Assembly: GCA_947588745.1 (NCBI GenBank)
Contig: CANPYW010000004.1
Coordinates: 1-64,000, forward strand
Direction of reading: 5' to 3'
DNA: 64,000 nucleotides
DNA from: Candidatus Gastranaerophilales bacterium
GTDB lineage: Bacteria; Cyanobacteriota; Vampirovibrionia; Gastranaerophilales; Gastranaerophilaceae
In this document: positions 24,399-25,974 of the stretch, in pieces
Position numbering within the stretch: position 1 is the first letter of the stretch
How the letters are laid out: each line of letters starts with the position of its first letter
Notes under the pieces: model-generated
The model's input: the letters and a program-made list of their open reading frames with translations, nothing else
What the model was told of the DNA's origin: nothing
Database searches by the model: none
Program-made: the position numbers and the translations under genes

Positions 24399-24734
24399 CT
24401 ATTTTGCATAATAACAATAACCATGACAATCATATAGGGGAGGACCGCAAGTACTATCTCTATTTGACATATTTACACGACAATCCCATTTTATATAGCA
24501 AGTAAAATCATTATCATAATACGTTATATAGTACTGCCCGCCTTGAGTATTATAACCATCTCCGTTGGAATAATTATGTGGTATCATTGTACCTTTAGAT
24601 TTTAAGTTTGCATAAAAACCGCCGTCACATACTGGTTGCCCCGCAATAAATTCACTTCCACCGCCATCCAAAATATTATTATAAATATCAATTACTTCCT
24701 CATCCGATAAATTTTCCAAATCAAATTCATGCAT
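24399..24734 (-). CDS. Cysteine-rich small protein with double-glycine-like leader (RiPP-precursor-like)
   Basis: A 111-aa protein with no family I recognise. The N-terminal ~24 residues (HEFDLENLSDEEVIDIYNNI, then LDGG) are acidic and helical and end in Gly-Gly. That is the layout of double-glycine/Nif11-like leaders of peptides exported by C39-peptidase ABC transporters. The remainder is rich in Gly, Asn, Tyr and has six cysteines, three of them crowded into the last ~20 residues. AAGAGG sits 5-6 bases before the ATG, and the ATG is 10 bp behind the stop of the TupA-like ATP-grasp gene, so they form one transcript. It could be a ribosomal peptide substrate of that enzyme or simply a small secreted disulfide protein. 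No transporter is next to it. Confidence 0.65.
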   Translation of the reverse strand: MHEFDLENLSDEEVIDIYNNILDGGGSEFIAGQPVCDGGFYANLKSKGTMIPHNYSNGDGYNTQGGQYYITYYDNDFTCYIKWDCRVNMSNRDSTCGPPLYDCHGYCYYAK

Positions 24735-24744
24735 AAAAACCTCT

Positions 24745-25756
24745 TCACTTCAAACTAAGCATATTACCCAATCTTAAATTCCATTCTTCTTTTTCAAATT
24801 TATAAAAACCCGAAAAGGGCGTAAACGTCATTTCTTCAAAGTATAAATCGCCAAGATATTCAAACCAGTCACACCTCACGAGCTTAAAGTCCAAACATAA
24901 TTTTTGGGAAAGCTCAACCGCCAATTTCAAATTTTCGGAGGGAGGCTCTTGAACCGCCTCATAAATATCACGGAATTTTAAATCAATTTGATTGTAATTC
25001 TCATCATATACACTGCAATATCTTATATCACTGTATATTATTTTTTGAAAAATTTTAGGTTTTCCGTTAAAACAATAAATTTCATATTCAACAGGTTTTT
25101 TACTCAACTCCGTAACCATTAACGGCTCAATTAATATTTTTGGAACAATATTTTTATACTGAAGTTCAAACCCGCAGAACACGAAGAATGTTTGATACAT
25201 CCAACCGTCAAACCGCCTTTTGACTATATCAAATAATCTTCTATTCTCAAGGAATTCTGTTTTGTTTAGTATTTTAAAATGCCATTTACATCCGTTATTG
25301 GCTTTTATAATAAATCTCTCAGGTAATTCATCAAAGGGTATGTCATCAAAATTGTTGCCAATCCAAAGAACAGGCTTTAAATATTTTTCCGAAATTTTTT
25401 CTTTAACAAAATCACGAACAAGAACTTTATCGGTTAAAACTGTTTTTAAATTAGTCGTATCATTCAATTTTAACCACTGGATTTTTTCGTTAAAATTTTT
25501 CGGATTTTTTAAATTAAGTTTTTGATTTGTATATTTATAAAAAATCTTTTTTAAATATCTCGGATAATCTTTGGCATCCAAATTTACCAAAAAGTCATAT
25601 TCATAAGGCGGGTTTTTTGTAAATAACTTGCAGGTTAATGTATTTAAATTTTCTTTTATTCTACGAACAATAAGGCTGAAACGCCGTGGGGGGGGGAAAA
25701 AAAATTTTTAAATTGTAAAACTTCATATTAGACTGCATAAAATTTAAAATATTCAT
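24745..25756 (-). CDS. TupA-like ATP-grasp protein, out of frame at a poly-C tract (phase OFF as sequenced)
   Basis: The stretch below 25687 encodes a TupA-type ATP-grasp enzyme. Its markers are LKNPKNFNEKIQWLK, LPERFIIKANNGC, EYEIYCFNGKPKIF, and the C-terminal EEMTFTPFSGFYKFEKEEW. Related proteins add amino acids or build teichuronopeptide-like surface polymers. This frame has no ATG, only a TTG at 25590 that would remove conserved N-terminal sequence. ATGs at 25756, 25738 and 25726 open another frame that enters C9 (25688-25696) and stops after 31 codons. With 8 or 11 C residues the frames join, giving about 336 aa. A near-consensus promoter lies just upstream. Alternatives are a homopolymer sequencing error or a fixed pseudogene. 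Confidence 0.8.
25688..25696. repeat. Homopolymeric G9 tract (C9 on the coding strand), likely slippage site
   Basis: Nine G on the plus strand, directly followed by A8, inside the 5' end of the ATP-grasp gene. It is the only G/C homopolymer of this length I found in the window. Confidence 0.85.
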
Positions 25757-25786
25757 AAAATTACCCAAATCTAAGGTGACAAAATT

Positions 25787-25814
25787 ATTATAAAAAAAAT
25801 TTTTTAAATGTCAA
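25787..25814 (-). promoter_or_regulatory. Consensus sigma-70 promoter of the ATP-grasp/Cys-rich peptide operon
   Basis: On the minus strand, TTGACA (25814-25809), a 16-base AT spacer and TATAAT (25792-25787). Both hexamers are perfect. The predicted start is about 25780, roughly 24 bases before the ATG at 25756. Confidence 0.7.
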
Positions 25815-25903: not shown

Positions 25904-25974
25904 TCCCGTTTCGTCTAATGGTAGGACGCAACACTCTGGATGTTGCTATCGAGGTTCGAATCCTTGAGCGGGAG
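25904..25974 (+). tRNA. tRNA-Gln (anticodon CTG)
   Basis: A 71-base cloverleaf. The acceptor TCCCGTT pairs with AGCGGGA with discriminator G. The D arm is GTCT/GGAC, the anticodon stem CAACA/TGTTG with loop CTCTGGA (anticodon CTG), and the T arm CGAGG TTCGAAT CCTTG. The weak U1-A72 pair and G73 are identity features of glutamine tRNAs. CCA is not encoded. It reads CAG codons. A TTG-anticodon isoacceptor must be elsewhere. Confidence 0.93.

Follow-up and report, generated by a model that had tools for sequence, protein, structure and literature searches.

A probable phase-variable RiPP-type operon of TupA-like ligase and precursor peptide, assembled OFF, in a gut Gastranaerophilales bacterium

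In its genetics, the locus considered here comes closest to the contingency loci of Campylobacter jejuni, of which strain NCTC11168 carries 29 poly-G/C tracts of at least 7 nt (PMC4965091). Its enzyme belongs with the TupA-like ligases (PF14305), among them Bacillus halodurans TupA and the C-terminal domain of C. jejuni Cj1438, and the characterised members have glucuronate or teichuronopeptide as their substrates (PMC11800379, PMC8153356). As for peptides matured by ATP-grasp enzymes, these are the graspetides (plesiocin, with PsnB and PsnA), in a survey of which the TupA-like family is not mentioned (PMC8939145). Also comparable are the radical-SAM RiPPs, with maturases such as SuiB (streptide), SkfB, and CteB. 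In the prochlorosins, one enzyme is shared by many hypervariable precursors.

Here, we analysed a 64,000-nt stretch of DNA (the window) from a Candidatus Gastranaerophilales bacterium, an uncultured gut-dwelling relative of the cyanobacteria, and place a rough probability of 0.68 on one of its loci being a phase-variable, two-gene RiPP-type operon (ligase plus precursor peptide) that was assembled in the OFF state. A strong predicted promoter would drive a TupA-like ATP-grasp ligase gene and a small precursor peptide gene, with slipped-strand mispairing at a C9 near the ATG either restoring or breaking the ligase frame, so that a single cell would produce the ligase when the tract has 8 or 11 C (ON) and a 31-residue fragment when it has 9 C (OFF). 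In the ON state, the ligase would be guided by the leader to the peptide and make an amide or ester bond there at the cost of ATP, much as happens in RiPP maturation; in the OFF state, the peptide would be left unmodified, or be poorly made because of polarity. The polarity, the bond formed, and the secretion and role of the peptide are what we infer. Open-access literature searches returned nothing on point for phase variation in Melainabacteria/Gastranaerophilales, nor for TupA-like enzymes together with RiPPs.

Promoter, tract, and reading frames

The features of the locus are as follows.

25787-25814, minus strand: predicted promoter, TTGACA (25814-25809), 16-nt spacer, and TATAAT (25792-25787), a 12/12 consensus match
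25661-25756, minus strand: short ATG-started frame of 31 codons that runs through the tract to a stop, the assembled OFF state (sequence and translation)
25688-25696, minus strand: C9 homopolymer with T8 as its 5' neighbour, the proposed slippage switch, belonging to a distinct tract size class
24745-25686, minus strand: TupA-like ATP-grasp frame of 313 codons, with its proposed start at the upstream ATG via the tract; PF14305 at 24760-25488
24399-24734, minus strand: proposed precursor peptide of 111 aa, leader model match 1.2e-10
24642-24734, minus strand: leader of the peptide, MHEFDLENLSDEEVIDIYNNILDGGGSEFIA, conserved and acidic
24402-24641, minus strand: core of the peptide, rich in Cys, Gly, and Tyr
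25904-25974, plus strand: tRNA-Gln(CTG), a divergent neighbour outside the operon

On the minus strand, the frame from ATG 25756 reads MNILNFMQSNMKFYNLKIFFPPPTAFQPYCS, passing through T8C9 before its stop, and the conserved frame stays open for 313 codons 3' of the tract until a stop at 24745-24747, with no ATG near its 5' end in the translation of 25686-24745. A single frame of 336 codons, with the tract in the 5' coding part of the ligase gene, arises at 8 or 11 C only (C9 minus one or plus two). In fact, an earlier note on this DNA had described the C9, the frame ending after 31 codons, the conserved frame without an ATG, the joining of the two by one C fewer or two more, and a perfect TTGACA-16-TATAAT upstream of the ATG, and each of these is borne out by the sequence and its translation.

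Near the 5' end of the conserved frame, the sole start-type codon is TTG 25590, which is placed inside the conserved region. A start at this codon, 3' of the tract, would leave the tract without control over the gene, and the TTG is in frame, with a 281-aa product that would keep the full Pfam match regardless of the tract. However, such a product loses the PPYEYDFL segment, which is present after the ATG in tract-free homologues, and there is no Shine-Dalgarno-like sequence ahead of the TTG. We therefore regard this start as highly improbable.

Poly-C/G tracts in the genome and its relatives

The window's genome is 2.0 Mb long with 32% GC. In 239 kb of it, the C/G runs number 38 (length 5), 2 (length 6), none (lengths 7-8), 12 (length 9), and 13 (length 10), and in the whole genome 27 (six), 1 (seven), 4 (eight), 12 (nine), and 13 (ten), which gives 30 tracts of length 7-10. 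The earlier note's remark that a long G/C run stands out here is well founded, as 25 runs of at least 9 are observed versus about 0.03 expected from the extrapolated length decay. Among the 29 tracts of at least 8, 18 fall inside ORFs of at least 100 aa when a one-base change is allowed, with 9 in phase and 9 out of phase as assembled. Moreover, tracts are positioned nearer to the 5' end than are control runs of 4-5, both in the window's genome (p=0.04) and in its relative G032 (p=0.006). The tract-bearing genes in the window's genome encode four polysaccharide pyruvyl transferases, AlgX-like acetyltransferases, a prepilin, PMP/autotransporter-like proteins, a methyltransferase, TupA-like enzymes, and a fusion of IspD, epimerase, and CDP-glycerol transferase. 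Such surface-type targets are usual for contingency loci. As in C. jejuni, then, an AT-rich genome holds about 30 C/G tracts of 7-10, many of them in frames, mainly in surface-modifying genes, and in mixed ON and OFF states. Unlike C. jejuni, the bacterium is from a different phylum, MutS is present in nearly all genomes searched, its targets include RiPP-like pairs and tract-joined gene fusions, and switching is predicted from sequence.

In the fusion (L015:1449-4571; G000 contig C15), an IspD-like domain, an epimerase domain, and a CDP-glycerol glycerophosphotransferase domain share one frame of 1036 codons by way of a C10 and a C9, and slippage would therefore drop the downstream domains. 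Elsewhere, a C10 within the 15-nt spacer that separates TTGACA from TATAAT (L009:5975-5984; G000 contig C1:10974-10983) is a candidate promoter-spacer switch. Three C9 are found within 73 nt of a C/T-rich intergenic stretch (L019:6246-6318; G000 contig C31), and an intergenic C10 adjoins a CA/TA microsatellite (L012:6038-6047; G000 contig C8).

More than a dozen TupA-like genes from several species have C/G runs of 6-10 just 5' of the conserved start, with frames that are mixed ON and OFF. In addition, near-identical paralogues differ by one tract unit, as seen with one genome per species. In G035, two tandem copies are 98% identical across the 100 nt before the tract, and one has a G10 (out of frame, OFF) and the other a G9 (in frame, ON). 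Likewise, two genes in the window's genome (L023 and L148) are identical over their first 226 upstream nt, which contain the start codon, and then continue with C9 (in phase) in the one and C8 (out of phase) in the other; these sequences diverge directly 3' of the tract, and recombination at this point is therefore also possible. Judging from such paralogues, slippage would take place in living cells. With a tract class that is genome- and family-wide, its 5' placement, paralogues in mixed frames, and near-identical copies one G apart, phase variation is well supported, and for the window operon we consider it likely on these sequence grounds.

The OFF state is a description of one assembly, with the C9 as assembled. 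A fixed pseudogene with a one-base break, or an assembly error hiding a true 8 C and an always-on gene, would account for the same letters, and in keeping with either there is a single assembly and no ATP-grasp gene was found at the corresponding site in other species, in which ispH and the tRNA-Gln region are apart from each other. Because of this, orthologous tract lengths are not comparable. Against both, the 313-codon downstream frame is intact and has the invariant ATP-grasp positions, the neighbouring long genes are whole, and the tract is one of 30, among which those inside ORFs are out of phase in half of the cases. We judge a pseudogene or assembly error to be unlikely.

Across 192 genomes of the order, tracts of at least 9 number 20-176 in many from the family (Gastranaerophilaceae-type gut bacteria, many of whose sampled genera are tract-bearing), though some genera have nearly none, and 0-6 in the other families. 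Inside the window's genus, the counts vary from 0 to more than 100. To this genus also belongs a Candidatus Gastranaerophilales MAG, apparently from rabbit (isolate name Lapin), that includes CANQCO010000028.1 (G027 contig C28). Loss of mismatch repair was considered as a cause of the tracts, but MutS is found in 39 of 41 genomes, whether these are rich or poor in tracts, and this is therefore not the explanation. Much longer C runs, of 20-30 nt or more and in some cases at the start of a contig (G007 contig C108:1-32 and G008 contig C60), may be sequencing artefacts.

The ligase, its small peptide, and radical-SAM partners

The family assignment of the earlier note holds, with residues 67-309 of 313 matching PF14305 at 101 bits (cut-off 25; 9.3e-29). 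No NCBIfam match was obtained for the ligase, and no solved structure was found that matches the TupA-like profile by sequence. An AlphaFold model (pLDDT 91.5, pTM 0.86) shows the ATP-grasp fold with high confidence, and Foldseek gave weak matches (TM about 0.4) to D-Ala ligases (Ddl), RizA (an L-amino-acid ligase), LysX/ArgX, and peptide-bound PsnB, a graspetide ligase (PsnB-PsnA2, 7drn; TM 0.38). LysX and ArgX act on the small carrier LysW. By profile and fold, the enzyme is like other TupA-like ligases and presumably carries out ATP-dependent amide ligation. Unlike the known members that act on glucuronate or teichuronopeptide, it occurs one-to-one with leader peptides and is heavily duplicated. 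On viral contigs, no close TupA-like genes were found, only distant relatives with 23-37% identity.

The ATG of the 111-aa peptide is located 10 nt 3' of the ATP-grasp stop, with GAAGAGG (24746-24740) before it. The peptide has no Pfam or NCBIfam family, and none of the related peptides scores above an NCBIfam cut-off. Nearly all close TupA-like homologues in the genus are followed by such an ORF within about 30 nt, and among the 47 enzyme/peptide pairs read, the median gap is about 11 nt. The first 30 or so residues follow the pattern L-S/T/N-x-E-E-I-x-x-L-Y/F-x-D-I-I-E, and the remainder is hypervariable. Over these pairs, Cys makes up 11.5% of the core and 0% of the leader (background 1.6%), D+E account for 28% of the leader, and the core content of D (4.7%) and E (3.6%) is below background for both. 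In the leader alignment (A2), one row had K2 entered as D, which affects the search model only.

Looked at from the side of the peptide, the fetched stretches contain 66 leader ORFs, of which 46 come directly after the C-terminus of a TupA-like enzyme, 6 are truncated where a contig or stretch begins, and about 14 have no ATP-grasp gene directly upstream, being tandem second peptides or stand-alone ones. Four stand-alone leader peptides with no directly adjacent ATP-grasp gene (L196, L190, L195, and L197) are beside small XRE-type regulators, as judged by eye, and L197 has TupA-like and radical-SAM genes nearby. Behind one TupA-like gene of G032, a tandem pair of leader peptides (L131/L132; contig C8:25583 and 25783) has a C11 and a C9 at the leader/core border.

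Directly downstream of the leader peptide, radical-SAM genes are found in 26 related loci from 14 species. One of the partners was modelled, and it displays an N-terminal beta3-alpha3 RRE-like domain followed by radical-SAM and SPASM parts; across about 425 columns, the solved structures nearest to it are the RiPP maturases SuiB (the best), precursor-bound SuiB-SuiA, SkfB, and CteB. None of the partners reaches an NCBIfam equivalog cut-off, and tracts are mostly absent from their genes. A three-gene operon of this kind is present on contig C11 of the window's genome, in which the radical-SAM gene comes after the leader and the TupA-like gene has a G8. Beside the window operon, there is no radical-SAM, protease, or transporter gene, and at other loci, contig C48 in the window's genome among them, a protein weakly similar to peptidase U32 follows. 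From the resemblance of the partners to RiPP maturases and from their RRE-like domain, we take the leader to be probably part of a RiPP-type system, in which the simplest role for the TupA-like enzyme would be that of a tailoring ligase. The locus has the makings of a RiPP, in that a modifying enzyme adjoins a short precursor whose leader is conserved and whose core varies. We hold a RiPP-type function of the window operon to be fairly likely, and on the evidence of pairing, its peptide would be the ligase substrate.

Alternatively, the gene may be a phase-variable surface-polymer enzyme, with the ligase amidating a capsule or teichuronic-type glycan and the small ORF being separate, or with the peptide attached to the glycan in the manner of a ribosomal teichuronopeptide. 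Here, the TupA-like domain of C. jejuni amidates capsule glucuronate (PMC11800379), the other tract genes in the window's genome are mostly of glycan or surface type, and glycan genes can adjoin distant TupA-like homologues. In contrast, no glycan gene adjoins the window operon, the pairs are situated among ribosomal, ispH, or phage genes, and the strict pairing, leader/core build, and RRE-bearing radical-SAM partners fit peptide maturation. We find the surface-polymer reading rather doubtful, though attachment of the peptide to a glycan would reconcile peptide tailoring with glycan modification. The earlier note had drawn a phase-variable surface-glycan gene from the TupA name; its slippage switching stands, well supported by tract class, 5' placement, and paralogues, whereas the glycan function gives way to peptide tailoring, as the leader-bearing small peptide next door fits better.

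As regards known peptide systems, the operon is like the graspetides in that an ATP-grasp enzyme adjoins a leader/core precursor, with PsnB-PsnA2 among the structural matches; unlike them, its enzyme is of the TupA-like family rather than a graspetide ligase family, and its core is Cys/Gly/Tyr-rich and acid-poor rather than acid-rich. With the radical-SAM RiPPs, many of the pairs share a partner with RRE-like, radical-SAM, and SPASM parts; unlike in those systems, an ATP-grasp enzyme and a radical-SAM enzyme meet at one precursor, and the window operon is without the latter.

Spread of the enzyme/peptide pairs

Leader and TupA-like hits number 60 and 75 in G009, 42 and 63 in G010, and 8 and 11 in the window's genome, and at a stricter threshold the leader is found only in the window's genus among 44 sampled genera of the order. 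In G009 and G010, many pairs break off where a contig ends, suggesting repeats that are nearly identical. A complete pair that has part of a TupA-like C-terminus and the start of another leader behind it (L163; G000 contig C2:36000-40000) has the appearance of a recent duplication. Two further pairs are prophage cargo, flanked by phage genes for the head-tail connector and the terminase (L173; G006 contig C50:114000-126000). Conserved leaders, hypervariable cores, and large numbers per genome are reminiscent of the prochlorosins, though here there is mostly one enzyme copy for each precursor.

The family of enzyme/peptide pairs is apparently large and undescribed. We give about even odds to a broader proposal, that TupA-like enzymes and hypervariable, Cys-rich leader peptides constitute an undescribed RiPP class confined to one gut Gastranaerophilales genus, with up to some 60-75 pairs per genome, and that poly-C slippage in the ligases, and at the leader/core border of some precursors, gives rise to phase-variable RiPP biosynthesis in which the mix of modified peptides on display differs from cell to cell. 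If true, a whole gut-bacterial family would join the holders of large poly-C/G contingency repertoires, and a new type of peptide-tailoring enzyme would be gained, along with an extensive library of natural enzyme/peptide pairs. This would also be, as far as open-access searches show, the first RiPP-type pathway switched by homopolymer slippage.
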